In this document: piece by piece, positions 43,460 to 64,000 of the stretch
Layout: the number at the start of each line of letters is the position of its first letter
Position numbering within the stretch: the first letter of the stretch is position 1
Source of the DNA: an uncultured Lachnospiraceae bacterium
GTDB taxonomy: Bacteria; Bacillota; Clostridia; Lachnospirales; Lachnospiraceae
Length of the DNA: 64,000 nt
Direction: 5' to 3'
Assembly: GCA_949472775.1 (NCBI GenBank)
Contig: CASWVG010000005.1
Span: forward strand, 1-64,000
The notes under the pieces: generated by a model
Database searches by the model: none
Told to the model about the DNA's origin: nothing
Seen by the model: only the letters and a program-made list of their open reading frames with translations
Translations under genes and position numbers: made by a program

Positions 43460-46615
<3,156 letters not shown>

Positions 46616-49680: not shown

Positions 49681-51237
49681 CTAATTCCTGCACGTCAAAG
49701 CTGCAAGGATGAAACTGAAACAGGAACCTTCCCCAACTTTGCTCTCAATCTGTAACCTGCTGTGATGTATTTTTAGAATCTCCACGCACAGCGCAAGTCC
49801 GAGCCCCGCTCCGTTCTTGCTTCTTGCCCGTGACTTGTCCACCATGTAAAAGGCCTTGACGATCTTAGCCTGTTCTTCCTCTGGTATGCCGATCCCGTAA
49901 TCCCTCACTGAGATCCGATAGCCACCGTCAGCCCTCTCACCTGTCACCTCGACCACGCCCGTCCTGCCGCCGGATACCGATGCCTCAGACACACCGACCA
50001 TATCAGCCCCCTTCTGGTCTGCCGCCTTGCCGCCCATTCCGTCCACACCCGCCATGTCAGGGCCTGCGCTATCCACCGCAACCGTACTGTCCGCCTTCGA
50101 TGCGGCGCTGCTCTCCGAAGCCTTGCAGGCATTGTCGATCAGATTGACAAGCACCGTCTTGATCAGATTGGCTTCCATCTGTACCACGGCTTCTTCGTAC
50201 ACAAAGCGGATATCCATATCCCTTTTCTCCGCAAACATTTCCCGCAGGTATGCGAACAATTCTCCCACCGGCGTTTCCTGCATCTGCGCCTCATCCTGTT
50301 TTGCCACGATGATATCCAGAAGGCGAAATGACATGGCCTCTAAGCGTTTGCCCTCCGTATAAATATAATTTGCCGACATGATGCTCTTTTCCTCATCCAG
50401 CTTGTGGGAGCGCAGCATGTCCGCGTATCCGATGATCGCCGTCAGAGGCGTTTTCAGTTCGTGGGCAAAAGCGCCCATAAACTCTTCTCTCGCCTCGATC
50501 TCCTCCTCCAGCTTGCAGATATTCTCCTCCAGCGCATTTGCCATCCTGTTAAAATCCCCGGTGAGCTGCCCTAACTCATCCCGGCTGACCTGTCTGGCGC
50601 GGTATGTGTAATCCCCCGCCGCCATTTCTCTGGTCGCCTTCGTCAGCAGGCGGATCGGCTTCGTCAAAAGGGATGCAATAAACAGCATGATGACTGTACC
50701 GGTCAATAGTATGACTACCGTCACTTTTCGATATAGGGAAAACCCCATGGCACGTTCTGAAAACACCCCCGTCACATCCTTCATGGTTTCCAGATACAGA
50801 ATCCGGTTCAGCGCATTGATGGATACGCAGGTGTGCACATAGAAGCTGTCCTGTGCACGGATCACACGGTAGGATTTGGTATGCTCATCCGTCTGCGGAA
50901 GCAGCCCTTCATCCGCACTAAATCCGCCGCTTGTATATAATATGTTTTTCTCCTCATCCGCAATCCGAAGGAGGCGCCCGCCACCCTGTCCGCCCATTTC
51001 CAGTTTGGACGCGATCTCCTCCACCACGCTGTCGGGCAGGACGCTGTATTTGAGCGGCACATTCAAAGCCGCCGTCTCAAAGGCAAAACTTAAAATACTG
51101 CTCTCGTCGAGCGACTGTCCCACCTCTCTGTCCAGAGAAGTCTCAAACACATAGTTTACAAAGTAAAACCCGCTGAATCCCAGTGCCAGCGCCAGCACAA
51201 TCATGGTAGACAGTACCAATTTGATTGAAAATTTCAT
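49681..51237 (-). CDS. Sensor histidine kinase
   Basis: A 518-residue membrane kinase. TM1 is at about 7-27 and TM2 at about 172-192, with an extracellular sensor of about 140 residues between. HAMP is at 193-245 and the phospho-acceptor His259 lies in AHELKTPL. The ATPase domain has the N box NLIDNACKAS (364-373) and G1 RDYGIGIPEE. Between them is an unusual Ala/Gly/Ser/Asp-rich insert of about 50 residues (375-425). The start overlaps the response regulator stop by four bases (ATGA). Its output is the regulator next to it, and the repeat array near 48.7 kb is a possible target. Confidence 0.93.
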   Translation of the reverse strand: MKFSIKLVLSTMIVLALALGFSGFYFVNYVFETSLDREVGQSLDESSILSFAFETAALNVPLKYSVLPDSVVEEIASKLEMGGQGGGRLLRIADEEKNILYTSGGFSADEGLLPQTDEHTKSYRVIRAQDSFYVHTCVSINALNRILYLETMKDVTGVFSERAMGFSLYRKVTVVILLTGTVIMLFIASLLTKPIRLLTKATREMAAGDYTYRARQVSRDELGQLTGDFNRMANALEENICKLEEEIEAREEFMGAFAHELKTPLTAIIGYADMLRSHKLDEEKSIMSANYIYTEGKRLEAMSFRLLDIIVAKQDEAQMQETPVGELFAYLREMFAEKRDMDIRFVYEEAVVQMEANLIKTVLVNLIDNACKASESSAASKADSTVAVDSAGPDMAGVDGMGGKAADQKGADMVGVSEASVSGGRTGVVEVTGERADGGYRISVRDYGIGIPEEEQAKIVKAFYMVDKSRARSKNGAGLGLALCVEILKIHHSRLQIESKVGEGSCFSFILAALTCRN

Positions 51238-51893
51238 TCCTGCACCTCTAAGCGATAGCCCACCTTGTACACCGCCACCAGATTATGCTCCCAACCCAGC
51301 TTTTTTCGCAGGCGCTGTACATGCAGATCAAGCGTCCTGCTGTCCGCAAAGTATTCTCCTTCCCACACCTTCTCATATAAGGTCTCCCGAAACAGGGCGA
51401 CGTTTTTATTTTTCATAAAGAGGAGCAGAAGGCCGAACTCTTTATTCGTCAGCTCCACGGGGCGTCCCGCCTTGGTCACCCTGCGTGCGTCCACATCCAC
51501 CGTCACGTCACCCGCTGTAAGATGCTGCTCCGCTTTGTTGTAACGCCTGAGCACCGCCTCCACCCTCGCCACCAGTTCCACCACGTCGAAAGGTTTTACC
51601 AGATAATCGTCGGCTCCCAGCTTCAGTCCCTTCACCCGGTGCTTCACCTCATGCTTGGCAGTGATAAAAATCACCGGAATCCCCAGAGGGCGTATGTACT
51701 CCATCACATCATATCCATCCGCACCCGGCAGCATGATATCCAGAAGAACAAGTTCAAACTCTTCCTTCTCGATCAGGTCAATTGCCTCCAGGCCATCCTG
51801 CACTGTCGTACAGTGATACCCTGCGGAAGTAAGATTTAAGTCTATCAAATCACAGATCGGTTTTTCATCATCTACAATCAGTATTTTAATCAT
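51234..51893 (-). CDS. OmpR-family response regulator
   Basis: A 219-residue DNA-binding response regulator. The receiver domain (1-115) has the acidic pair DDE (8-10), phospho-acceptor Asp52 in LLDIMLPGADG, and Lys near 100. The winged helix (about 125-219) includes RPVELTNKEFGLLLLFMKN and VWEGEYFADSRTLDLHVQRL, typical of OmpR/PhoB proteins. It overlaps the kinase by four bases and the upstream gene by eight, so all three are translated together. OmpR-type dimers bind direct repeats about 11 bases apart, which fits the repeat array near 48.7 kb. Confidence 0.96.
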   Translation of the reverse strand: MIKILIVDDEKPICDLIDLNLTSAGYHCTTVQDGLEAIDLIEKEEFELVLLDIMLPGADGYDVMEYIRPLGIPVIFITAKHEVKHRVKGLKLGADDYLVKPFDVVELVARVEAVLRRYNKAEQHLTAGDVTVDVDARRVTKAGRPVELTNKEFGLLLLFMKNKNVALFRETLYEKVWEGEYFADSRTLDLHVQRLRKKLGWEHNLVAVYKVGYRLEVQE

Positions 51894-52998
51894 TTGTGGA
51901 CTGCCACCCCCAATAATCCCGCGCTTTTTCTACCAGTATTTCCATCGTGTCTTCATCGCTGCACCGGTATACATCCCTGATTTCCGTATCCGGCAAAAAC
52001 CCGCCGGTTCTCTGGTAATAGATCCTGTAATCACTCTCAATGAGAAGCTCCCCGCCCTCGCCTTCATAACTGTATCTGGCAAGAATCACGATGTCTTTGA
52101 GCCCATCCCCGTCGATATCCCGACAGGTAACACCTTTGAGCGCATAGAGATTGTCGTACTCTCCCATCGGCTGCAATACCGATACGATATCTCCCTGCTC
52201 GTTCACCAGATAAATCATAAATATGTCATAATCCGCAATCCGGTATGTCCCCGGCGTCACCTGCAGCTTACCGAGCTTACCGAACGTCCGCAGATAACAC
52301 TGTTCCGGAATAACCCGGAAACGGTTCCTCTGCAGTTCCTGCAAAGTGGTCGCTGTGTACAGAAATTCCGTAGAATCCCCGTCCCGGACAAAAGCCGCAA
52401 TGGAATCCGCGCTCTTATTCATGCCAAAGCGGTTAATCTTTTCTGAAATCCGATAATCCCGGTAAAAACCGTTTCCCGACTGATTCTGGAAAAGCACGTC
52501 CCCCACCTTGTAAGTTTCACCCGCATAGATGCCGCTCTCATTGAGGCAGGAGGTGATAAGCACAATATCCATGTTGCCGTCCCGGTTCAGATCCTGAAAG
52601 GAGACCGCCGCAATGGACTGCACAGGCTGTCTCATCCGCCCTCGGACGCAGTAGTTTGTCTCAAGCTGCTCCGTCCGATAGAGAATCTGTCCGTCCGCGT
52701 CCACGATAAACAGCGCCAGACGGTTATACTGCGCATCAAAGGCAGGCACCATCAGAATGCTGTCCTCCTCATCCGGCTCCAGAGGGAATATCTGGTCTTC
52801 CACCACGAGAAAACCGCCGTCCGCAATCCCGTCCCGGTTCTCAATCGACAGGAACCGGTCATAGTACGCCTCGTACTCCGCCAGCACGGAAGTCTCTTCT
52901 ACTTTCTCCGGAGCAGCCTGCACTGCCAATTCCGTAAACGGCAAACAGCAGATCAGTACCGTCAGCGCCAGTGCATTCCTGTATCTACACCTGTTCAT
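51886..52998 (-). CDS. Secreted VCBS/FG-GAP-like repeat protein
   Basis: A 370-residue exported protein with a signal peptide (about 8-29, ALALTVLICCLPFTELAVQA) and two calcium-type loops in DLNRDGNMDIVLITS and DIDGDGLKDIVILARYS. These DxDGDG sequences are typical of FG-GAP/VCBS beta-propeller proteins. The role is unknown; it may be a structural or sensing part of the envelope locus. Its last codons overlap the response regulator start by eight bases, which ties it to the signalling genes. GGAG precedes the ATG. Confidence 0.8.
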   Translation of the reverse strand: MNRCRYRNALALTVLICCLPFTELAVQAAPEKVEETSVLAEYEAYYDRFLSIENRDGIADGGFLVVEDQIFPLEPDEEDSILMVPAFDAQYNRLALFIVDADGQILYRTEQLETNYCVRGRMRQPVQSIAAVSFQDLNRDGNMDIVLITSCLNESGIYAGETYKVGDVLFQNQSGNGFYRDYRISEKINRFGMNKSADSIAAFVRDGDSTEFLYTATTLQELQRNRFRVIPEQCYLRTFGKLGKLQVTPGTYRIADYDIFMIYLVNEQGDIVSVLQPMGEYDNLYALKGVTCRDIDGDGLKDIVILARYSYEGEGGELLIESDYRIYYQRTGGFLPDTEIRDVYRCSDEDTMEILVEKARDYWGWQSTND

Positions 52999-53022
52999 TC
53001 GTCACACTCCTATATAGCACAA

Positions 53023-54948
53023 TCACTTATCACTTCCCTCTTTCTCAAACACCGCTCTCACGCAAAGCCCGTTCTCCGGTATCTCCAATTCCAGAGATGT
53101 CCCCTCAATAGTTTCCATCCCCTGTCCGGCACTGATTTCCCATCCAGCAAAGCGATATCCTTCATTGGCTGTTGCCGAAATGGTAATCGGGTAATCCGTA
53201 AAATATTCTCCCTTCCATTTTCCCTGGCCGTCAAAAGTCGGCGTTATTGTATTCAAAGTAATCTGCCCAGCGGCCGTGTCCGACATTTCGAGTTTCACAG
53301 TCGCAAGACAACCTTCCAGCCCGAAATTTTCTTCCAGATACTGCGCAGCATATGGTTTTCTACCCTTGATAAATGCCCGGATATCCGCCACTTCCTCATC
53401 AAAACGGTACACACCTTCTTCCCCGTAAAACCGCCGCAGATGCGCCTCCATCGGCTCCCGCATCAAAGCAAGCCATTCCCTGATCACCCGCTCCGTATTT
53501 TCCACTGAAAAAGTTTCATTGGCAAGATCCATCAGTGTAAGGGAAAACTCCTTTTTAAACGCATCACTCTGGCATAAATTGCAAAACGCTGAGTTACTCT
53601 TTATGGTACTGCCCAGTGTATCATCCTTCATCACCTCTTCCCGAAGTGCACTTGTGTTGACATCAAACAACATCCACCGCCATCTGCCGTCTTCATAATT
53701 TACCCGTCTCTCTGTATTTTTAACCGGCTTGCGCGCTCTCCAGAAAGCCTCGTTCGTACCAGGCCAGTCTTCGGTACCAATATAAATCTCTGTCGCGTAA
53801 TAATCAATAAAACTTTGCAGATCAATGGTATAGTCAAGAGACTCATAATTCTCCGCTGTTGTAAAATCAGTATCCTGCAGATAATTCAGCATGCTTACAT
53901 AAACTGCCCAGTCCGCCTCGCTCTCCCGGGTCAGTTTATTATTTTTCATTATAATAATGTTGTCAGCATCAACACCATAATAATAGCTGAGATATGTGTT
54001 TGTATATCTTTCGGTAAGCCAGTAGACGCCCCAGTATTCACCATTCAAAAACATGACGCATGGCTCGTAATTCATCGTGCAAAAATTTCTGTCCTTCGTC
54101 TGTGTGGACACAAACATATCGCGAAATTTGGCAATAGCATCCTGGCCACCCGCGGTAAGTGTCACCGTGTCTGCCATATAGCCAGTTCCAAACAAATCCG
54201 AATAGAACCGCGTCGCCAGGCTGTAAATCTTCCTGGCATAAAAGTTCAGACTTTTTGGCAGGTAGGCACGGCTGCTGCCTCCCTGAATCCGCATACCGCA
54301 GGGCTGCTTCAGGGATACCTCCCGCTCCGCGTTGAAAATCTGAATGTCCACCAGACGCTCCCATGCCATTCCATGATTATAAAAATTTGCATTCTCCCAC
54401 AAGGGATTCCCGTTTTCGTCTAGATTGTTATCATATTTACGCCCAAGAACATAAATGCCTGTATCGTAATCAAAGAGATTTTCGGGCGCCGTCACGATAG
54501 ACATGACATTCATATCCCGGTATCCCGCCTTCTCATCATAACACACAAAATAACTTTCCGTTTTCACCTCACCAAAATTTCCGTCAACATTCTGACTTAC
54601 TGCTCTGACAATCGTACATTTGTCAACAGTATAGTCCGGCAGCTTATACTGCGGATCATCCACCAGATCCGTTCTCGCGGAATATACATTTGGCTGCGAA
54701 GTCGCGTCATCAATAAAAATAGGAGTCGTGTACAGAAACGCATTTTCGTCCGGTACAGAACCGTCCAGCGTGTAATAGATTTTTTCCCCGAATGGAGCAG
54801 ACAATTTCAGCTCAAAAGGCTCCTCGTAAAATCCCGATTTTCTGGAAAAGCACAATTCCTTTGGGCAGTAATTGTCGCACAAAAGAAGCAGGCACAGAGT
54901 CCCACATATGAACAGCAAACAAAACAATGCACATTTTCGGCTCATCAT
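53023..54948 (-). CDS. CotH kinase-family protein, copy B
   Basis: A 641-residue exported or anchored protein (hydrophobic start about 6-25). Residues about 38-130 form a chitobiase/FN3-like carbohydrate-type domain (SGFYEEPFELKLSAP, IYYTLDGSVPDENA). Residues about 165-510 are a CotH kinase-like domain (GMRIQGGSSRAYLPKSLNFY, VMFLNGEYWGVYWLTERYT, DLQSFIDYYATEIYIGTEDW, WRWMLFDVNTSALR). The end (about 560-641) resembles a bacterial repeat domain (GYRFAGWEISAGQG). Family members are atypical protein kinases. The position usually DxD reads DVN here. It overlaps the DUF4956 gene by four bases. Confidence 0.85.
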   Translation of the reverse strand: MMSRKCALFCLLFICGTLCLLLLCDNYCPKELCFSRKSGFYEEPFELKLSAPFGEKIYYTLDGSVPDENAFLYTTPIFIDDATSQPNVYSARTDLVDDPQYKLPDYTVDKCTIVRAVSQNVDGNFGEVKTESYFVCYDEKAGYRDMNVMSIVTAPENLFDYDTGIYVLGRKYDNNLDENGNPLWENANFYNHGMAWERLVDIQIFNAEREVSLKQPCGMRIQGGSSRAYLPKSLNFYARKIYSLATRFYSDLFGTGYMADTVTLTAGGQDAIAKFRDMFVSTQTKDRNFCTMNYEPCVMFLNGEYWGVYWLTERYTNTYLSYYYGVDADNIIIMKNNKLTRESEADWAVYVSMLNYLQDTDFTTAENYESLDYTIDLQSFIDYYATEIYIGTEDWPGTNEAFWRARKPVKNTERRVNYEDGRWRWMLFDVNTSALREEVMKDDTLGSTIKSNSAFCNLCQSDAFKKEFSLTLMDLANETFSVENTERVIREWLALMREPMEAHLRRFYGEEGVYRFDEEVADIRAFIKGRKPYAAQYLEENFGLEGCLATVKLEMSDTAAGQITLNTITPTFDGQGKWKGEYFTDYPITISATANEGYRFAGWEISAGQGMETIEGTSLELEIPENGLCVRAVFEKEGSDK

Positions 54949-55619
54949 CCCACTGTCTCTCCAGACTGTGCCACCCAGTTTACAGACTGAATGCCCGGAA
55001 CAGTCAGAAGCGCATCCAATACATCAAGATTAATTTCGCCCTTTGTTCCGATTTCGCAAATCATTTCCTCGTGTCCGACATCCTTGTTTACCGTCCGCAC
55101 CCGAAAACTGACAACATAAGGCTTCAATTTCTCCTCGAACTGTTTCCTGTCAATCGCCTGTTCTCCGCCGCTCACGACCAGCAAATATCTATTCCGGATT
55201 CCCGGCACTTTGCTGGACAAAATCAAGATTACCGCGATAAACAACACTGTGGTAAACGTCAGCCGCCAGTTCTGGGAACTCACACAGAGCCCTTCCGCCA
55301 TCGCCCAGAAAATAAACATGGTATCCCGGCTGTCCTTTACCGCCGTCCGAAAACGTACGATAGACAGCGCGCCCACCATACCAAGCGACACGGCAATATT
55401 ACTGCTGATCATCAGCATGACCACCACGGTAATCAGATGCATAATTACAAGAGACCAGTTAAATTTCCTGTTGTAGGCAATTTTCTCAGCGGAAATATAA
55501 TATGTCAGAAAGATAATCATTCCCACTGCCAGGCCGCACATCAGTATAATCAGCGTTGTTTTCACGCCATACTCGCTGCTGTTTGTATAAAAATACTCCA
55601 GAACCTCTTCCTTCGACAT
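54945..55619 (-). CDS. DUF4956 membrane protein, copy B
   Basis: A 224-residue membrane protein with three or four helices in residues about 20-140 and a soluble C-terminal domain (about 145-224). The family signature is SLGMVGALSIVRFRTAVKDSRDTMFIFW. The first helices include TTLIILMCGLAVGMIIFLTY. DUF4956 proteins are regularly found next to VTC-type polyphosphate polymerase genes. A membrane partner or channel role for the polymer is my inference. I chose the ATG at 55619, preceded by GAGGAG, because the frame upstream overlaps the VTC gene. The stop overlaps the CotH start. Confidence 0.9.
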   Translation of the reverse strand: MSKEEVLEYFYTNSSEYGVKTTLIILMCGLAVGMIIFLTYYISAEKIAYNRKFNWSLVIMHLITVVVMLMISSNIAVSLGMVGALSIVRFRTAVKDSRDTMFIFWAMAEGLCVSSQNWRLTFTTVLFIAVILILSSKVPGIRNRYLLVVSGGEQAIDRKQFEEKLKPYVVSFRVRTVNKDVGHEEMICEIGTKGEINLDVLDALLTVPGIQSVNWVAQSGETVG

Positions 55620-55633
55620 AATAAACCTGCTCC

Positions 55634-56341
55634 TCAGTAATTGAAACCATAATAAACGGAACGTCCGGCACAATATTTGCTGTAAGCGCCCTGCGTCAGA
55701 TGAAACTGCGTAAACAGGGCGGACAAAAACCCCATAAGCTTCCCGCTGTATTTCACTTCCAGAACCACATTTCCCCACAAGATTGGCGTATAACAGACAT
55801 CCGGTGAAAAAATATCCATATTGGATTCGGAGGATCTGACATTCATGTCCAGCGTCACACGCGTGTCATACATGGGATATTTGTATGCCAGCCTGTCATA
55901 CGCAATCTGGACAACAGGACGATACAACCCCTGCATCATAATACCATATGCTATCCGGCTGGTCCTGGAACTGTTAAAATACTTTTGAAGCACCTTTACA
56001 TTCCCGTGTAAAAGTTCCACTGCGTCGGGCATCGATACAATCAGGCTCAGTTTCTGCTGGAGGTCATTGGACTTTTGCTTGATTTCCAATTTGCACAGAG
56101 ACGCATCCCCGTCATAAATCCGGAGACGCACCTTTTTACGGTCGGATACACCCGCGAGCTTTTCCGCGAAATCAATCTGATTAACTGAATCAAAATACAC
56201 ACTTTTCACCAAATACGGACTGTCTGTACAATGCCCGTCTCTCTGCAGCAGCCTGTCCAACTGTTTTTCAATCGCCAAAGCCTTGACAAGCGGCACAATA
56301 TATTTAATTTCCCTTCTCTGGGAATAAAGCTCTCCGCCCAT
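55634..56341 (-). CDS. VTC-domain polyphosphate polymerase, copy B
   Basis: A 235-residue soluble protein that is nearly all VTC domain, the tunnel-shaped catalytic domain of eukaryotic Vtc4 which makes polyphosphate from ATP. Key positively charged positions are visible: REIKYIV, KKVRLRIYDGD, LEIKQKSND, YDTRVTLDMNVR, VLEVKYSG and YSKYCAGR. No SPX domain is present, as usual in bacteria. It lies 14 bases before the DUF4956 gene and has its own promoter (56403-56431). Function as a polymerase is inferred from family knowledge; substrate could be another nucleotide-derived polymer. Confidence 0.88.
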   Translation of the reverse strand: MGGELYSQRREIKYIVPLVKALAIEKQLDRLLQRDGHCTDSPYLVKSVYFDSVNQIDFAEKLAGVSDRKKVRLRIYDGDASLCKLEIKQKSNDLQQKLSLIVSMPDAVELLHGNVKVLQKYFNSSRTSRIAYGIMMQGLYRPVVQIAYDRLAYKYPMYDTRVTLDMNVRSSESNMDIFSPDVCYTPILWGNVVLEVKYSGKLMGFLSALFTQFHLTQGAYSKYCAGRSVYYGFNY

Positions 56342-56402
56342 TGTACAATCCGGCTCCTCTCCTGCATACAGAAATAGCGCTGTTTCTGACTAAACCTCAA
56401 CA

Positions 56403-56431
56403 AGTATAGCACTAACCGGCCGCGTTTTCAA
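56403..56431 (-). promoter_or_regulatory. Promoter of the second VTC-DUF4956-CotH module
   Basis: On the minus strand TTGAAA (56426-56431) and TATACT (56403-56408) are 17 bases apart, in the gap between the GH5 gene and the VTC gene. It suggests that this module and the signalling genes after it can be transcribed on their own. Confidence 0.75.
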
Positions 56432-56458
56432 TCGTTCCCCTCTCAATTTAAGATTTCA

Positions 56459-57559
56459 TCATTGCCGCCCTTTTCCCCGGGTAAGCATCTCCACCATCTC
56501 CTGCTCTTTCCATACAAGGGACTCTCTGTCAATCAATTTCCGATCGTCCCCTTCATCCCACCAGAAACAGGTCACACCGCTCTCCTGCGCCCGCATCAGA
56601 TAATACTGCAGCCATTCCAGACGATCCTCCCTGTTTCCCTTGTCCTCACTGCCAAATTCCGTTATGATCACCGGAATATTCTTTTTCACATAATTCTTTT
56701 CAAGCCACGCAAACAGTGTGTCTATCTTTTCCGTGTCTTTCTGGTCTTCTGCGTCAAAACGCTTATTTTCCCTATCCCCGTCACAAAAAGAATAAGGAAT
56801 ATAAGCGTGCACCGATACAATAATATGCCCCTTTATATACTGAACCGCTTCAAGCGCCTCTGCCTCATAACGGTTTGCATAGGGACAGATCAGCAGATAC
56901 CTGTCCTCGTTTTCTCCCCCCACCGAGCGCACCGTATCCACAAAAACCCGGTTCAGACGATTGGTCATCGCCTGCAGTTCCTTCGTTCCCGGCGTCCACT
57001 CGAACTCCGAATCGCGCAGTCTCGGTTCATTCATCCCTTCAAACAAAAGCTTCTCGTCATAGTCGCGAAAACACTGTGCAATCTGCGTCCACACCCGGGA
57101 AAGCCTTTCACCGATCTCTTTTTCCCGCTCCGGCTTCAGGTCGAGCCACATTTCGTGGTGCGTATCCAGAATCACATACAGTTCTTCCGCCAGCGCCATG
57201 TCAACAACTTCCTGCACGCGGTCCAGCCACGCCTGCTCTATCGTTCCTTCCTCGTCCAGATGTTCGTCCCAGGTTACCGGTATCCGTACGCTTTTAAATC
57301 CGGCGTCCTTTACCGCCCAGAACAGCTCCTGCCTGATAGGCGGGTTATTCCAGAATGTCTCATAATCCTCTACAGACGCTTCGGACATATGCTCCCGCAC
57401 ACCGGTAGCATCCAGATTGTTTCCGATGTTAATGCCGTTTCCCAAAGCCTGTACAAAACGCATACCTTCCTTCCTCCGATAATCGGTATAACACAACGCG
57501 CCAGCCACCGTGGCCAGTGCCACTCCTATGACCGCGCCCAGTATGATCTTTTTATTCAT
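56459..57559 (-). CDS. GH5 endoglucanase, membrane-anchored or secreted
   Basis: A 366-residue glycoside hydrolase with a hydrophobic segment at about 5-25 (KIILGAVIGVALATVAGALC). The TIM barrel starts GNGINIGNNLDA; the acid/base is Glu178 in FEGMNEPR and the nucleophile Glu301 in VIITEFGSED, with RIPVTWDEH and HAYIPYSFC also typical. Members cut beta-1,4-glucans such as cellulose. It lies in an operon with polymer-acylation genes, like the cellulase genes of cellulose-synthesis operons. I chose the ATG at 57559; a GTG at 57583 overlapping the preceding stop codon is also possible. Confidence 0.88.
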   Translation of the reverse strand: MNKKIILGAVIGVALATVAGALCYTDYRRKEGMRFVQALGNGINIGNNLDATGVREHMSEASVEDYETFWNNPPIRQELFWAVKDAGFKSVRIPVTWDEHLDEEGTIEQAWLDRVQEVVDMALAEELYVILDTHHEMWLDLKPEREKEIGERLSRVWTQIAQCFRDYDEKLLFEGMNEPRLRDSEFEWTPGTKELQAMTNRLNRVFVDTVRSVGGENEDRYLLICPYANRYEAEALEAVQYIKGHIIVSVHAYIPYSFCDGDRENKRFDAEDQKDTEKIDTLFAWLEKNYVKKNIPVIITEFGSEDKGNREDRLEWLQYYLMRAQESGVTCFWWDEGDDRKLIDRESLVWKEQEMVEMLTRGKGRQ

Positions 57560-57579
57560 ATTTGCTACTATCCTTTTCC

Positions 57580-58428
57580 TCACTGCGCCGTCGCTTCCCT
57601 ATTTTGCAAAATCAGATGTTCTCCGTCACTTTGAAACACCACATCCGCTTCTCCCGAAAAGAGAAGCCTGCTGCCATACTGTCTGCCACAGTGCACAATC
57701 TCCTCGTCTGCCGTTTTCGATGTAACCACAGCATAAACCGGCTGCAGTGTTTCAAACAGCTCATCCGACGCGCTGTTTGCCCTCCCGTGATGAGGTACTT
57801 TATATAGACTCACCTCCGGCAGATTCATAAGCAGAAGTTCCTCGCTGCGTTTTCTGAGGGCGTCCCCACCAAAAAACATCCGGACATTCCCGTGCTCCGC
57901 CAGCACCGCGAGAGAATAATTGTTATCCTCTTTATAATGGTTTTCCTGCGGCGGATATATGAGCAGACTCATATATTCCATGTTCATCTTCCATACATGG
58001 TTCGGATAGTATACCCGAATCCCCGCCTCTTTACAATAACTTTTTATCGCCTCAAGCTCCTCTTTTTCCCTGTCATAGTAGGGCAGAATCACCTTATCCA
58101 CAGTGACCGACTGCAAAACAGCCATCGCTCCACCGATATGGTCCAGATCCGGATGCGTCAGAATAAGCGCATCCAGTTTTTCAATCCCCGCCTTTCGCAA
58201 AACTTCCAGAATGGTCTCCCCGTCCTGCGCTTCACCGGCATCAATCATCACCGCCGCCTCACCGTGCCCCATAATAATGCAGTCGGCATCATCTTTTGTC
58301 TGTAGAACACGCACCTGCAGCTCCTCATCGCTTTTGGATAAAGCAACGCCGCCTCCGGCCGCCCGGTATGCAGACCCCAATATAAGTATCAGCGCAATCC
58401 ACGCGCAAACCACCGCCGCTTTTCTCAT
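57580..58428 (-). CDS. Exported metallo-beta-lactamase-fold protein, ComEC-like
   Basis: A 282-residue protein with a hydrophobic N-terminal segment (about 4-24) followed by an MBL domain resembling the soluble C-terminal domain of ComEC/Rec2 (VRVLQTKDDADCIIMGHGEA, then LTHPDLDHIGGAMAVLQS with the HxxxDH-like motif, FFGGDALRKRSEEL, KVPHHGRANSASDEL). It has no ComEC membrane channel. Proteins of this group are nuclease or phosphodiesterase candidates. The substrate in this polymer locus is unknown. AGGAG stands before the ATG at 58428. Confidence 0.85.
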   Translation of the reverse strand: MRKAAVVCAWIALILILGSAYRAAGGGVALSKSDEELQVRVLQTKDDADCIIMGHGEAAVMIDAGEAQDGETILEVLRKAGIEKLDALILTHPDLDHIGGAMAVLQSVTVDKVILPYYDREKEELEAIKSYCKEAGIRVYYPNHVWKMNMEYMSLLIYPPQENHYKEDNNYSLAVLAEHGNVRMFFGGDALRKRSEELLLMNLPEVSLYKVPHHGRANSASDELFETLQPVYAVVTSKTADEEIVHCGRQYGSRLLFSGEADVVFQSDGEHLILQNREATAQ

Positions 58429-58441
58429 TTCCAGACTCCTG

Positions 58442-59647
58442 TCAATCCTCAAAAAATGCAAATGCCCTCTCACTGATATTATATGGATAAACCTCTATAA
58501 TCAGATAGTCATACTCCTCTTCCTGGATCAGTTTCTCATAATCAATATCATTATAATTTGATCTGGCCCACACCAGATCGATCTGGCTGCACATAGGTGC
58601 CAAAAAACAGGCAACCGGGGACATATAAGTGTCGCGCAGACAAAGGATTCTGGGTCCGTCCGGATTTTCCGTATTGACGATACGGTCCCGGTTCACCACA
58701 CCTTCCAGATAGACAGCACTCCCGGGATTTTCATACCGGTCTTCCCCGTCCGGCTCCAGGTCAATAAACGCTTCGTGAAAGCTCCCCGCTTTTCTCTCGC
58801 CGCTCTCCAGATCATACCACTTCATTCCCGTTTCAAACTTCGGATATAAAACCGTATAGTCTTCCTTACCGGCATACAGAATCCCCGTTTCCCTGCCAAT
58901 GGCTCCTATGGTTGCCTGGCGGTACACATCCGCACGGTAATTCTCCCTGTCGCAGAAAAAATGTTCCGTATCCCAGTCGTCGCCAAAATCATCCCGTATC
59001 TTATCCACAAGCGCCCCGGCAGCGACAAAGGCTGCCTCCGACGTCCACATATGATCTGTCCGGTAAAACAGTTCCTCCTGCATCATGCCCGAATTTTCCA
59101 GCGGCCCGCGCAGATCAAGCGTCCTCACCTGATTTTGCTGCAGATACAAAAGAAGCTCATCCTGAACGGCATTGGTATCGTTTACGGGAAGTTTCCTGTC
59201 CTCTCCCATCAGAGAATACATCACCTTTGTGGGCGGCATGACAAAAATCGTCTCCGCTCCCCGTTCCTCAGCACAGCGTGCCGCCCTTCCCACCCGCTTC
59301 GCATACTCCATCAGACTGTCGTCCTTCCCCTCAATAACAGCGCCATAATATATCATACCTTTTTCGCCTGTTACGAAAGAAAAGTTCCGATATTCCCGCT
59401 TGTGTAATACGCGCTGCGTCATGCCATACAGTTCCGTAAAGGCGTTTCCTGTCACATCCCTCTGCAAAGCCTCTGATAGTTCAAAAGCCGCCTCTCCCGC
59501 CTGTTCAAAGTCCGAAGCCTTCGACAACTTTTCAAGAAAAACTCCAATCTCATCCTGCTTTTCATACATATGATATCCTGAAAAGGCAAAAAGCCCCGCC
59601 AGAAAACAGAACAGAAATATATACTTTTTCCGGAAATATGCTTTCAT
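58442..59647 (-). CDS. AlgX/AlgJ-like (DHHW-type) SGNH-fold protein
   Basis: A 401-residue exported or anchored protein with a hydrophobic segment at about 8-25 (KYIFLFCFLAGLFAFSGY). Residues about 85-390 fit the AlgX/AlgJ acetyltransferase fold, including FVMPPTKVMYSLMG, the FYRTDHMWTSEAAFVAAG block that holds the DH pair, and RILCLRDTYMSP with the strand before the likely Ser nucleophile region. Partners of MBOAT proteins, these enzymes transfer acyl groups to exported polysaccharide. It lies 45 bases after the MBOAT gene. I chose the ATG at 59647. Confidence 0.85.
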   Translation of the reverse strand: MKAYFRKKYIFLFCFLAGLFAFSGYHMYEKQDEIGVFLEKLSKASDFEQAGEAAFELSEALQRDVTGNAFTELYGMTQRVLHKREYRNFSFVTGEKGMIYYGAVIEGKDDSLMEYAKRVGRAARCAEERGAETIFVMPPTKVMYSLMGEDRKLPVNDTNAVQDELLLYLQQNQVRTLDLRGPLENSGMMQEELFYRTDHMWTSEAAFVAAGALVDKIRDDFGDDWDTEHFFCDRENYRADVYRQATIGAIGRETGILYAGKEDYTVLYPKFETGMKWYDLESGERKAGSFHEAFIDLEPDGEDRYENPGSAVYLEGVVNRDRIVNTENPDGPRILCLRDTYMSPVACFLAPMCSQIDLVWARSNYNDIDYEKLIQEEEYDYLIIEVYPYNISERAFAFFED

Positions 59648-59695
59648 CATACCTCCCTTTCCGCGCCCGTGTAAATCCTGTCATTCTTCTAAAGT

Positions 59696-61087
59696 TCAAT
59701 ACAGCGAATACAAAAACGGTCTGCCCAGCCCCTGCATCAGATAGCTGATTGAAAGCAGCAATGCCGCAAGCATGACAATGGGATAGCAAACCGTGATAAC
59801 CGCCTTGGCAAGCCCTCCTCTCCTGCCCTTTACCAGCCAGTTGTTGACCTTCTTTGTCACTGGTGTGCAAAAGAAAATGCCTGCGGCCAGATACATCCAG
59901 TACTCTCTGAGAAGCGTCCCCGTCATGGGGTTCCATATCCCATTGAAATTTACCCCGAACATATTCATATAATACTGTCCTGCCTGATACAGATCAACAG
60001 CCCGGAAAACAACCCAGCCCAGAGCGATCACCACAAGCGTATACAGCCTCATAACTGCCTTGTGGGAAGTGACTCCCGTATATCCTATAAAACGCTCCGC
60101 CAGGATAAACAGAAACTGCCACAGGCACCACATGAGAAACTTCCCCGAAACACCATACCACAGCCCGATCGCAAGCCACGTCAAAAAGAGGTTTCGCACC
60201 ATCGTATCCATGTTTTTCTGTCTGCTCCCGCCAAGCGGTTCATACACGTACTGCCCGAACCACTTTGTCAGCGAGATGTAAAACCGGTTCCAAAAGCCGC
60301 TCACCGAAAGTGCCGTATACGGGTAATTCATGTTTTCTTCCAGAATTATGCCAAACATCAGACTTAAACCCACCGCCATATCCGCATAGCCGGAAACATC
60401 AAAATAAATCTGCAATGCAAAAGCAAGCAGTCCGATCCATGCCATCAGAATTGGAACCGTGGCATTTTCACGCCCCATTGCGGAATAGTTAAACACAATA
60501 TCCGCAAGCTGTGCCAGCGTATCTGCCAGAAGCACCTTTTTGGCCAGCCCGGTCACAAATCTGCTGCAGCCGACCGCACTGCGGCGCAGGGTCATCTTCC
60601 TTGCAAGCAGTTGCTTTTGGAACACCTCAAATCTCATGGCCGGTCCGGCAGTCAGCTTCGGGAAATAGAAAAGATACAGACCAAGTGTAGCCGGGTTCTT
60701 TACCGCCGGCGTTTCTTTGGAATAGACATCCGCCAGATAGGAAATGCCGGAAAGCATCACAAAGGAAAGCCCCACCGGCAAAAGGCTTCCCTGCGCATAA
60801 ATATATTTAAAGAAAATCACGGGCGCCATATTACATATAATTCCCAAAAGAAACGCCGCCCGTCCCCGTCCTTCCTTACGCCTGCCCAGCACAATTCCAA
60901 ACACACCGTTTAACAGCAGCAAAACAAGCACGACCGCCGCTCCAGTCAGTGTTCCAAAGGCACAAAAAGCCAGGCTTGCCAGAAACAGCCACACCCTTTG
61001 CAGCGTCTTGCTAAAAAAACACAGATAATATCCCAAAAGTGTAATCGGGAAAAAAAAGATCAAAAATGTCATGCTTGCAAAAGACAT
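59696..61087 (-). CDS. MBOAT-family acyltransferase (AlgI-like) with altered catalytic His
   Basis: A 463-residue membrane protein with about ten helices. AlgI-type features are LFYFPKLTAGPAMRFEVFQ, YFDVSGYADMAVGLSLMFG, NYPYTALSVSGFWNRFYISL and FGQYVYEPLGGSRQKNM. In the family these proteins pass acetyl groups across the membrane to an AlgX/AlgJ-like partner, which is the next gene. The conserved GLWHG motif reads GLWYG, with Tyr311 in place of the catalytic His (codon 60155-60157). AGGGAGG precedes the ATG. Activity is therefore doubtful or altered. Confidence 0.9.
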   Translation of the reverse strand: MSFASMTFLIFFFPITLLGYYLCFFSKTLQRVWLFLASLAFCAFGTLTGAAVVLVLLLLNGVFGIVLGRRKEGRGRAAFLLGIICNMAPVIFFKYIYAQGSLLPVGLSFVMLSGISYLADVYSKETPAVKNPATLGLYLFYFPKLTAGPAMRFEVFQKQLLARKMTLRRSAVGCSRFVTGLAKKVLLADTLAQLADIVFNYSAMGRENATVPILMAWIGLLAFALQIYFDVSGYADMAVGLSLMFGIILEENMNYPYTALSVSGFWNRFYISLTKWFGQYVYEPLGGSRQKNMDTMVRNLFLTWLAIGLWYGVSGKFLMWCLWQFLFILAERFIGYTGVTSHKAVMRLYTLVVIALGWVVFRAVDLYQAGQYYMNMFGVNFNGIWNPMTGTLLREYWMYLAAGIFFCTPVTKKVNNWLVKGRRGGLAKAVITVCYPIVMLAALLLSISYLMQGLGRPFLYSLY

Positions 61088-61097
61088 AAACGCCTCC

Positions 61098-62690
61098 CTA
61101 CCTTCTGGCGATATAATAAAGCGGAATCAGAAATACACAGGCTGTCAGAAACAGCCATACCCCATGCCAGTTTCTGACACCGGTGGTAAACACCGCACTC
61201 TTATGCAGTACGGAAAGCTGCGACGGAATCGCATCCCCATGTTTGCGGAGAGCTGTTTTCATGCGGTAAAGCTCATCTTCATAAGTTCTCGCATCCCGCA
61301 CAAGCACCGTTTTATCGTCAAGCTCATATTCTTCCAGACTATACTCGGTTTCCTCCATATAGACATGCCGCCAGCGATACCATTCCCTCTCCTGCGCGCC
61401 GCCAAGATGAGCCGCAATTTCCTCTATTTTGTTCATTATATGTTCTTCGGAAAAGGATCCTCTGCGCAATTCAAGATAGCGTTTTTCCATTTTCCTGATA
61501 AAGGTATTGTCCCTGCAAAGCTGCTCAAACCACGGCTTCGTCTGGAATGCGAGCGCATCCGTATCAAGCGGCTCATGTTTATAGTTGTCAATCGTGCCGT
61601 CGTAATCCCATGCCGGTCCCATCGTCAGTTTCCCGCCCCTGTCTTTAAAGCAGTAGGTCGAAAAATTGCCGCTATCATAGCTGCCGAAAAACTCATTCAT
61701 AAGAAAGTAATCCACAAAAGAATCGACGTCAATGATATTGTCGTAAGTAGAAAATACGTCCTGCTCGTCCGAATACAGAACCCTTTCAATCCTGCTCAGA
61801 TCATCCTCAATATAAGAAACCGTATCCTCCGAAACGTCATATCTTGACGGATAAAGCAGCCCGAACCACTCCGCCGCAAATCCCTGCTCCCTCGCATAAG
61901 TGTTTAACATCAGACCCTCTTCATCCAGCCTGTCGCGCCGTACAAGATATGCGTTAAACACATCCCCCGCCCGGTATTTGCTGATGTTCACCCGATCAGC
62001 ACCCTGCCTGATACTTTCACCGAGCAGAAACACGCCTTGATATGTATATTTGCCGTCCGTTTGCAAAATCACTTCACAATATTCATTATCCGGCGTGTAG
62101 GGCATAATCTCGGAAGAGATGCTGTAAACAAGATAATTCCTCATCATGCTCTTATCCGCCATACTGCCGTTTAAAATCCACTCATGCTCCTCTCCCATGC
62201 CAAGAATATCCAAATCCCGGTACTCTCCCGACTCGGAGACAAGCTTTATCATATACTGTGCCTTTTCATAGAGCATCGAAGAATTGCCTCTTCGTTTAAT
62301 CCGCATCCGGCTTACCACACACGGCTCACCATCCAGACTGTTTACACCTCCATCCCCATCGTACAGCCGGAATACACCTTCCACATATGGCTCCACGCCT
62401 TCTAATGGTATAAATCTCCCGTCCTCGGGATTCTGCCTTGTGGTAATGGGCGGTTCCTCCTCCATCTCTAAAACCACCACCGGCAAATGCGACTTAAAAT
62501 ACTCATTTAACGTAAAATCCTCATTGATTCCGGCTAACGGATCCTTCTCCCGGGGCGCAGCAGAAAGCGGCGCAGCATAGCTGTTTTTTACCGTATCCTT
62601 ATGCAGTTCGTGATAACCCGCCGCCGCAGCCATACACACTGCCAGGCCGCCCAGGCACGCCAACAGGCCTTTCAATCGGTATCCCAACAT
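61098..62690 (-). CDS. CotH kinase-family protein, copy A
   Basis: A 530-residue membrane protein with a helix at each end (about 8-26 and 505-526), so its kinase-like domain should lie outside the membrane. CotH signatures include RMRIKRRGNSSMLYEKAQYM, EWILNGSMADKSMMRNYL, YQGVFLLGESIRQGADRVNI, DVDSFVDYFLMNEFFGSYDS and MGPAWDYDGTIDN, with the DYD metal-type motif intact. CotH of Bacillus phosphorylates spore coat proteins; here the context suggests envelope proteins. It lies 11 bases before the DUF4956 copy A stop on the transcript and 10 bases before the MBOAT start. Confidence 0.88.
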   Translation of the reverse strand: MLGYRLKGLLACLGGLAVCMAAAAGYHELHKDTVKNSYAAPLSAAPREKDPLAGINEDFTLNEYFKSHLPVVVLEMEEEPPITTRQNPEDGRFIPLEGVEPYVEGVFRLYDGDGGVNSLDGEPCVVSRMRIKRRGNSSMLYEKAQYMIKLVSESGEYRDLDILGMGEEHEWILNGSMADKSMMRNYLVYSISSEIMPYTPDNEYCEVILQTDGKYTYQGVFLLGESIRQGADRVNISKYRAGDVFNAYLVRRDRLDEEGLMLNTYAREQGFAAEWFGLLYPSRYDVSEDTVSYIEDDLSRIERVLYSDEQDVFSTYDNIIDVDSFVDYFLMNEFFGSYDSGNFSTYCFKDRGGKLTMGPAWDYDGTIDNYKHEPLDTDALAFQTKPWFEQLCRDNTFIRKMEKRYLELRRGSFSEEHIMNKIEEIAAHLGGAQEREWYRWRHVYMEETEYSLEEYELDDKTVLVRDARTYEDELYRMKTALRKHGDAIPSQLSVLHKSAVFTTGVRNWHGVWLFLTACVFLIPLYYIARR

Positions 62691-62701
62691 ATGCCATCCC
62701 T

Positions 62702-63379
62702 TTATCTGTTAATCTCATCATTCTGACAAACCAGATTCACCGCCGTTACAAGCTTACTCTTATAAAATATATCCGGAATATTTCCCTGTTTTTTTACTTT
62801 CTCAATCACCTTTTCTGAAACCTCATAGATATATTCCGCGCTCTCAGCCGTGGAGTTATCCACACGCATCCTCGCATGTCCATTGAATCTGTTCTCCACA
62901 AGCTTCTCCACTTCCGCCGCATGTTCCTGCGGGCAGCGGATAATCAGCAGATATCTCTCGTTGCTCTTCACAGCCCCGAAGAGAATCAGCACAAGAAAGA
63001 TCACAAGCGTACCCACGCCCGCCATCACATACTCGGAGACGCCGCAGCAGATTCCCACCGCAATTCCCCAGAAAATATATGACGTATCCCGCGGATCTTT
63101 GATCGCCGTGCGGAAGCGTACGATAGAAAGCGCGCCGACCATGCCAAGCGAAAGTGCTATGTTGTTTCCGATCACATTCATCACCAGCGTCGTGACAAGC
63201 GTCAGCATCAGTAAAGAGACGTTAAACCGCGCGCTGTAAGACGCCCCCGAATGGGATATCCGGTAGGAAAGATAGATCACCGCCCCAAGCACTGCGGCTA
63301 CCAGAAAATTTAGTATCATATCCTGTAATGTCAACGCTCCCGTATTTGCCGAAAAATAATTCATCAACTGTTCTTTCAT
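62702..63379 (-). CDS. DUF4956 membrane protein, copy A
   Basis: A 225-residue membrane protein with the same plan as copy B. Helices lie in about 20-40, 53-75 and 98-135, and a soluble domain follows. The signature region SLGMVGALSIVRFRTAIKDPRDTSYIFW is nearly identical to copy B, so the two came from a common ancestor. It lies between VTC copy A and CotH copy A. GGAGAGG stands before the ATG. The role is inferred only from its constant pairing with VTC-domain genes. Confidence 0.92.
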   Translation of the reverse strand: MKEQLMNYFSANTGALTLQDMILNFLVAAVLGAVIYLSYRISHSGASYSARFNVSLLMLTLVTTLVMNVIGNNIALSLGMVGALSIVRFRTAIKDPRDTSYIFWGIAVGICCGVSEYVMAGVGTLVIFLVLILFGAVKSNERYLLIIRCPQEHAAEVEKLVENRFNGHARMRVDNSTAESAEYIYEVSEKVIEKVKKQGNIPDIFYKSKLVTAVNLVCQNDEINR

Positions 63380-63450
63380 TATCCTGTTCCTCTCCTCTAC
63401 ACGTTCTTATGGACTTTGCAGTAAGCGCAAAGTCCCGGGCTGAACTGTTA

Positions 63451-64000
63451 TTATTCGGTTCCTCTCATGCTTATGCTCCGCGCCATGCAATATTTGCTCG
63501 CCGACACCTGCGGTTGTCCGTGGAGCGACAGCAGATCGCGCACATAGCTTAACAGAAAATGGTTAAATTTAACTTCAAGCGTCGTGACGCCCCGTTCCGA
63601 CACGGGATAAGTCAGCAGATTTCCGGCAAACAGATCCAGATGACTCTCCGTCGCCCTGATATTGGCATCCAGCGTAATGCGGATATCATTTTCCCGGACA
63701 AACCAGGCAGTTCTGTCATACTCCACCACACAGCGCGGACGATAGGCCTTTTCCTGCATGGTGAGATACATATCCTGCGCAAAAGAATCTTCCCGGAGCA
63801 GCAGACATGTATAATTTCCCTCCATCATCTGCTCCGCCTCCTGCCTTGAGACAAGTAGGGAACGTTTCCTCTGAAAATCACCTGTTTTCTCTTTCAGTTC
63901 CAGCTTCGCGCTCTTTGCTTCCGGATCATATACCCTGAGGCGGATTTTTCTTCTTTCCCCTATGCCATCTGATTTTTCACGAAAGTCCGTGTCGTCCGGC
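63451..64000 (-). CDS. VTC-domain polyphosphate polymerase, copy A (cut by right edge)
   Basis: The C-terminal 182 residues of a VTC-domain protein; the start lies beyond 64000. The reading frame continues upstream without stop from the apparent Met at 63828, and includes ERRKIRLRVYDPEAKSAKL and LELKEKTGD, which are core VTC strands. Later motifs are RPRCVVEYDRTAWF, NDIRITLDANIRATE, VTTLEVKFNHF and ASKYCMARSIS. These match copy B position by position. It is the first visible gene of the envelope locus, which probably begins outside the window. Confidence 0.9.
   Translation of the reverse strand, partial: PDDTDFREKSDGIGERRKIRLRVYDPEAKSAKLELKEKTGDFQRKRSLLVSRQEAEQMMEGNYTCLLLREDSFAQDMYLTMQEKAYRPRCVVEYDRTAWFVRENDIRITLDANIRATESHLDLFAGNLLTYPVSERGVTTLEVKFNHFLLSYVRDLLSLHGQPQVSASKYCMARSISMRGTE

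Follow-up and report, generated by a model that had tools for sequence, protein, structure and literature searches.

The gene cluster at positions 51886 to 64000 of a 64,000-nucleotide stretch of DNA from an uncultured Lachnospiraceae bacterium (the whole stretch, bases 1-64000 of contig C5 in a genome of 3.36 Mb that is 84.55% complete, is called the window here) most likely serves to make and modify a cellulose-like slime polymer. The cluster holds two copies of a gene trio encoding a VTC protein with a polyphosphate-polymerase-like tunnel domain, the membrane protein DUF4956 and the kinase-like protein CotH. Our reading, to which we give a probability of about 0.38, is that this is a cellulose-type exopolysaccharide locus with two accessory trios, in which polyphosphate exported by VTC and DUF4956 feeds a CotH on the outer side of the membrane. 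Every gene named in a first-pass annotation of this DNA was matched by Pfam, and all of them are on the minus strand, the order of transcription being VTC copy 1, DUF4956, CotH copy 1, MBOAT, ALGX, MBL, GH5, VTC copy 2, DUF4956, CotH copy 2, an FG-GAP protein that the annotation had not listed, a response regulator (RR) and a histidine kinase (HK). Its description of two trios in the same order around MBOAT, AlgX-like, MBL-fold and GH5 genes is borne out by these matches.

That the locus makes a polymer, as the same annotation had supposed, is supported by the gene adjoining it just outside the window. At contig positions 64174-66498, 21 bases upstream of VTC copy 1, there is a gene for a cellulose-synthase-like protein of 774 aa with GT2 and PilZ domains by Pfam, and above it one for a protein of 522 aa that has several hydrophobic segments. 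Among solved structures, bacterial cellulose synthases are the best relatives of the synthase (E 2e-74 over residues 26-583), and it can safely be called cellulose-like, but cellulose is not proven as the product because the score against the NCBIfam cellulose synthase model (CelA) was 389 bits, below the cut-off of 699. A PilZ-bearing GT2 of Romboutsia produces mixed-linkage glucan (PMC10374906), and either cellulose or mixed-linkage glucan could be the product here. As an exopolysaccharide locus, the cluster is related to the cellulose synthase locus ccsZABHI of clostridia, which has a BcsA-like GT2 with PilZ, a GH5, an MBOAT and an SGNH acyltransferase (PMC7710045), and it carries the trios in addition. 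Like ccsZABHI, the window cluster together with the adjoining synthase has a GT2 with PilZ (CcsA), a GH5 endoglucanase (CcsZ-like; 56459..57583, Pfam 2.9e-55) for which the best-matching solved chains were those of an endoglucanase, a xyloglucanase and a beta-1,3-1,4-glucanase, an MBOAT O-acyltransferase (CcsH/DltB-like; 59696..61087, Pfam 1.5e-23, NCBIfam DltB below cut-off) and an SGNH protein (CcsI-like; 58442..59650) that was matched as ALGX (5.4e-13) and not as DHHW by name. Unlike ccsZABHI, the trio loci add VTC, DUF4956, CotH and MBL-fold genes. The MBL-fold protein of the window (57580..58473, start possibly internal) is ComEC-hydrolase-like (Pfam Lactamase_B 1.1e-14, NCBIfam ComEC below cut-off) and, as in the GH5 and AlgX-like proteins, its N-terminus is hydrophobic. 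In the class-sample genome G358 the order GH5-synthase-unknown-MBOAT-ALGX is that of ccs, and no trio is present in the fetched stretch. No CcsB-like gene turned up in the trio loci searched: when the G358 gene in the place of CcsB, which is CcsB by position only, was used as a phmmer query against open reading frames of at least 150 aa in L013, L015-L017 and L020-L142, a set that includes the same-genus cluster L102 and leaves out the window file itself, it matched G358 alone (two overlapping loci). A Pfam scan of the 18 genes between window position 43460 and contig position 68063 gave no Pel family. The synthase is rare, being found in 2 of 61 relatives and 10 of 391 class genomes (E <= 1e-60; both counts include this genome). 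The same-genus genome G033 keeps 15 genes, from the synthase to a 276 aa gene past the kinase, in the same order with 81-98% identity and with ratios of nonsynonymous to synonymous substitution rates (dN/dS) of 0.03-0.22, and therefore the arrangement is not due to chance; the 522 aa gene is also there in part, where the G033 contig ends.

The trios are real units, as had been proposed. The gene-order search suggested along with that proposal was run, and the trio genes are not rare neighbours elsewhere: a VTC gene was present in 78 and a CotH gene in 75 of 80 named loci, these being the best 80 of 584 loci found by DUF4956, biased to near relatives and many of them stopping at contig edges. 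VTC and DUF4956 were each found in 64 of 398 phylum genomes and these were the same 64 (E <= 0.001; 62 for DUF4956 with the cut-off that Pfam itself sets), which gives a Fisher p of 1e-75 with relatedness ignored. A VTC on the same strand was within 1.5 kb of 76 of the 78 DUF4956 matches, upstream in 68, and 6 of the 82 VTC matches had no DUF4956 within 1.5 kb; one of these pairings relies on a VTC fragment below the cut-off, and the counting merged gene fragments. The same 3 of 14 control genomes matched both families, and no VTC-DUF4956 fusion was seen among 265 loci. This pairing points to a concrete two-component enzyme. CotH was matched in 50 of the 64 genomes with VTC vs 6 of the 334 others and was within 6 kb of VTC in 38 of the 64, a count that includes one added CotH place of the present genome. 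The present genome has five VTC genes and a PPK1-family gene as well, and storage polyphosphate therefore does not require VTC.

Copy 1 of VTC (63451..64000) is truncated at the window end, its in-window part matching Pfam VTC at 2.5e-27; the complete gene is at C5:63451-64152 with an uncertain TTG start, and the whole protein matches at 2.8e-39. Copy 2 (55634..56341) matches at 2.5e-29. A profile of the genome's five VTC proteins matched yeast Vtc4 (3g3q) with E 4e-8, and basic residues of the bacterial proteins align with Vtc4 K200, R264, R266, K281, K294, R361 and R373; E193 and K220 correspond to Vtc4 E426 and K458 via the LEVK and SKY motifs and not via the best printed alignment. The triple change R264A/R266A/E426N impairs the function of Vtc4 (PMC9911596). 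The VTC alignment used 37 of the 38 sequences that passed a motif filter plus the 5 of this genome, and the invariance of VTC R8, E10, K12 and Y13, like that of the GMVGA core of DUF4956, is partly built in by the motif filters. DUF4956 copy 1 (62702..63379, Pfam 4.1e-13) was modelled with a mean predicted local distance difference test score (pLDDT) of 86.5 as helices followed by a C-terminal ferredoxin-like domain, and for copy 2 (54945..55619, Pfam 1.1e-12) the start chosen was the ATG behind a GAGGAG-like site, which gives 224 aa as in G033. R88, R90 and K94 of DUF4956 were invariant in 56 sequences, within a stretch of pLDDT 66-78, and possibly make contact with a polyanion. In the yeast VTC complex a tunnel-domain polymerase is joined to a membrane channel that couples synthesis to translocation (PMC9911596), and the bacterial pair may work likewise. 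Unlike the yeast complex, however, the bacterial VTC proteins are tunnel domains of about 230 aa without hydrophobic ends (0 of 38) and their membrane partner, DUF4956, is of another membrane family.

In contrast to VTC, most CotH proteins encoded at the named loci (65 of 75) carry a hydrophobic segment at the N-terminus. CotH copy 1 (61098..62690, Pfam 1.9e-54) has such segments at residues 6-24 and 510-528; copy 2 (53023..54948, Pfam 9.3e-32) has N-terminal chitobiase-C/Fn3-associated domains and a C-terminal InlB-B-type repeat. In a phylum sample the N-terminal segment was present in 48 of 60 CotH proteins, of which 47 were in genomes with VTC and 32 had VTC as a neighbour in the stretch fetched, whereas of the 12 without it none was beside VTC, 4 were in VTC-free genomes and seven, of 364-373 aa, were like spore CotH. 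The Fisher p values, uncorrected for relatedness, were 2e-5 for adjacency and 0.004 for genomes; these rest on 60 of about 80 places fetched, in stretches of differing size that were in part mostly drawn to include VTC, but the coordinates of genome-wide VTC and CotH matches likewise give 0 of 12. The hydropathy cut of 1.9 was picked after the first table; L213 (1.81) and L214 (1.63) resemble signal peptides, and L221 and L246 are possibly incomplete. The Bacillus subtilis control matched CotH and not VTC. Thus, the VTC-DUF4956 pair accompanies CotH proteins that are predicted to act outside the membrane. A profile of 42 CotH sequences (40 of the 75 named-locus rows and the 2 of this genome) matched the solved spore CotH (5jd9) with E 2.2e-18. 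D339 and D362 were each kept in 41 of 42 and their spacing of 23 is that of D228 and D251 of B. subtilis CotH, where D228Q and D251A are inactive (PMC7821199). The CotH proteins of the trios are therefore like the spore kinase in matching its structure and in having both catalytic Asp residues at that spacing, and unlike it in that they are predicted to be membrane-anchored or secreted and often carry extra domains.

The trio itself is not new. Gram-positive pel loci carry cotH, a poly-phosphate polymerase gene, DUF4956 and DUF4832 (PMC7112168; PMC12345266), that is, the same trio beside an exopolysaccharide locus, with mutant phenotypes for two of the three genes in Streptococcus intermedius. 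Unlike in the pel loci, the synthase here is cellulose-like, and the Pfam scan of the 18 genes gave no sign of contiguous pelDEADAFG genes. A 2025 paper states that the arrangement was not found outside the Pel locus (PMC12345266), and this statement is contradicted by the loci described here. NELoc-2 of Clostridium perfringens has two VTC genes, a CotH, a 685 aa protein, a HEAT protein and a glycosyltransferase (PMC2879425, PMC11677781), and two genes of 222-226 aa annotated there as tubulin/FtsZ that we take to be DUF4956; it is of the glycosyltransferase/HEAT type, unlike the window cluster, which is of the BcsA/acyltransferase type. What is already published is the trio beside Pel, and what is added here is that it is spread more widely, that VTC and DUF4956 are strictly paired, and a proposed mechanism for the phosphate donor. 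In a partial literature search, which did not reach subscription papers or preprints, we met no proposal that polyphosphate feeds CotH, and we do not claim that none is in print.

The mechanism that we propose is as follows. Going by their families, for which the knowledge is strong, the GT2 and PilZ synthase would polymerise and extrude a beta-glucan, the MBOAT and the AlgX-like protein would acylate it, and the GH5 would trim or release it. Trio 1 would go with the synthase and trio 2 would be a separate module at the same site, both being accessory. VTC would build polyphosphate from cytoplasmic ATP, and DUF4956, as its membrane partner, would thread it outward. CotH, anchored outside where ATP is scarce, would take polyphosphate as its phosphate donor and phosphorylate the glucan or a matrix protein, which would bring negative charge and metal-bridged aggregation. 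This would join three questions, namely the role of VTC in a cell with a PPK1-family gene, the identity of DUF4956 and the phosphate donor of an outer CotH. If true, phosphorylated exopolysaccharides could arise without extracellular ATP, which would be a new kind of matrix chemistry. It is doubtful, though conceivable, that this extends to a general system of extracellular phosphorylation in which VTC-DUF4956 exports polyphosphate to membrane-anchored CotH proteins that modify exopolysaccharides as varied as cellulose-like glucan, Pel and polymers of chitin-synthase-like GT2.

Several observations weigh against polyphosphate as the donor of CotH. Trp361, next to the second Asp of CotH, is invariant (42 of 42) and could, we presume, hold a nucleotide. 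The bacterial VTC proteins have Glu10 where Vtc4 has T198, which may recall tripolyphosphatases. The spore-type CotH proteins may be one clade, and the topology contrast does not therefore count as many independent events. No CotH was matched in 14 of the 64 genomes with VTC, and the control genome of Bacteroides ihuae has VTC and DUF4956 without CotH. In the class sample there were 11 BcsA-type genes in 10 of 391 genomes, and the trio was in the fetched flank of 3 of the 11 (G000, G353 and G406), so the trio is an option and not a rule. CotH uses ATP in vitro (PMC7821199). The strongest evidence against our reading is that from S. intermedius: deletions of the DUF4956-like gene and of cotH each lose over half of the aggregation in artificial sputum, and in the accessible parts of that paper the deletion of the polyphosphate polymerase gene is not listed as changed; all of the mutants still make Pel, the amount of which is up in one of the DUF4956-like and CotH deletions and down in the other (PMC12345266). 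A simple chain in which VTC feeds CotH is weakened by this because one phenotype would be expected for all three mutants. The present genome, with its five VTC genes and a PPK1-family gene, suggests by analogy that redundancy can exist.

The alternative that survives best, its chances falling a little short of even, concerns trio 2, and it is compatible with any other explanation of the trios: trio 2 would be a resident module unrelated to the glucan cluster beside it, and might serve a surface protein, for instance. Copies 1 and 2 are 33%, 37% and 24% identical in DUF4956, VTC and CotH, respectively. In a tree of 91 DUF4956 proteins, which took in 79 of the 82 open reading frames of the named loci after a motif and length filter had removed L062 and L071, copy 1 is in a branch of 19 rows that includes all 18 BcsA-linked rows (SH-like approximate likelihood ratio test, SH-aLRT, 86, unstarred) and copy 2 groups with trios that have no synthase (SH-aLRT 99, starred). 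A tree with both copies in one clade was rejected (p 0.0004, the group having been named after the tree was seen). The trios, as judged from these sequences, are not a local duplication and would be two modules of different lineages. This, together with the neighbourhoods in the genus, speaks for two specialised modules, as was suggested at the outset, over one doubled module. When the same site was fetched from 7 of the 34 kinase-bearing genus genomes, the FG-GAP-RR-HK block was present in all 7, five had no trio (one stretch ends at the contig end), none had a synthase there, and G032 and G449 (L127 and L130) had trio 2 alone. Ahead of trio 2, at 56403..56431 on the minus strand, there is a promoter-like site, TTGAAA-17-TATACT with TG before the second hexamer, which scored 10/12 in a consensus scan alone; that scan found 29 such sites in the region vs 19.6 expected. 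A similar sequence is found in G033. G449, whose trio 2 is by itself, has one too, reading TATAAT, but G032 does not. The two genomes with trio 2 alone, its grouping with synthase-less trios and the promoter-like site favour a resident module, but trio 2 is on the same strand as GH5 with a gap of 117 bases that is kept in G033. Doubling of parts is also seen elsewhere, with a second DUF4956-CotH pair in L030, a second DUF4956 in L133 and, by our reading of sizes and order, in NELoc-2. The second DUF4956 in L133 (3290-3985) has the core SIGLIGAL vs SLGMVGAL and is perhaps a degenerate partner.

Regulation is a less probable explanation, and one that is near the suggestion published for the Pel trio. 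CotH and DUF4956 would adjust how much polymer is made or how long its chains are, through protein phosphorylation or sensing, with VTC in a side role. Pel levels shift in opposite directions in the DUF4956-like and CotH deletions, with no effect stated for the VTC gene in the accessible parts (PMC12345266), which would fit this; a regulatory role of CotH has already been suggested (PMC7112168), and the C-terminal ferredoxin-like fold of DUF4956 also matches MgtC (7qa5) and an ACT domain. However, VTC is unlikely to be a side player because VTC and DUF4956 occur in the same 64 genomes, and the N-terminal segment of most of the locus CotH proteins places the kinase away from cytoplasmic regulators. 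Slightly less probable again is that polyphosphate is itself the product, secreted by VTC-DUF4956 as a matrix co-polymer or metal binder, with CotH priming it or anchoring it to protein or glycan. The polymerase residues retained in VTC, its strict membrane partner and the genomes with VTC and without CotH are all in keeping with this, but a plain anchor would not need the active-site residues that CotH has kept. Quite improbable is a bacterial VTC domain that is a tripolyphosphate or nucleotide hydrolase or sensor in a trio unrelated to polyphosphate, since, although Glu10 is at what we map as an acidic-patch position of tripolyphosphatases (PMC4641920; the mapping is our own) and a PPK1-family gene is also in the genome, the other positions so mapped remain basic (R8, K96 and K195) and K220, motif-matched to the catalytic K458, is invariant.

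The FG-GAP-like protein (51886..52998, hydrophobic N-terminus), the RR (51234..51893) and the HK (49681..51237; 34 of 41 genus genomes at E <= 1e-60), all matched by Pfam, are genus-conserved neighbours that are not specific to the cluster. The RR/HK pair noted earlier after the second trio is indeed there, but it does not hold as a part of the machine because the FG-GAP-RR-HK block stands in genus members that lack the cluster.

With regard to the polymers beside the trio, 48 of the first 55 named loci (L020-L074) have a GT2 in the same direction, of the BcsA type in 12 and of another type in 36 (7 + 1 of these were checked by Pfam, and the split at L074 was set after the list was seen); among the 25 later loci such a GT2 is near in two (L080 and L088). 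In a BcsA tree, for which the trio rows were fetched by DUF4956 and a broken copy in G393 was left out, the trio-bearing rows are in two parts with trio-free rows between them. A gene of about 713 aa is present in 36 and a HEAT gene in 32 of the 80 loci; the one member of the 713 aa family that was scanned (the family being that of L028:8849-10987 and relatives) had no Pfam match. A GGDEF-EAL protein follows in 18 loci (one phmmer query; one was checked), mostly as a separate gene, and in L067 it is fused to the GT2. A contig labelled as a Micrarchaeota archaeon metagenome-assembled genome (L066) also has a GT2 and a complete trio, and mis-binning is possible there.

The present genome has variants at other places. 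At L015:2441-8055 (contig C13) there are a CotH with LTD and chitobiase-C domains, a Cthe_2159 carbohydrate-binding protein, VTC and DUF4956, adjoining genes that by eye resemble rmlA and rmlB. At L017:3991-8289 (contig C1) a VTC-DUF4956 pair is flanked by a small GT2 and by a membrane-like protein of 649 aa, and none of the CotH places of the genome falls at that pair. Two more CotH genes are about 13 kb apart on contig C1 (G000:C1:64426-65514 and C1:77178-78260; L018 and L019), where the sole VTC is near 15 kb. At L016:496-5828 (contig C60) a trio is beside its own RR and HK, as it is in L080, L086, L095 and L098. Finally, relatives of the MBL-fold protein of the window are directly beside the trio in L035, L072 and L074 and also in the flanks of L022, L028 and L083; the trio-adjacent ones are perhaps an outer phosphodiesterase of the system.

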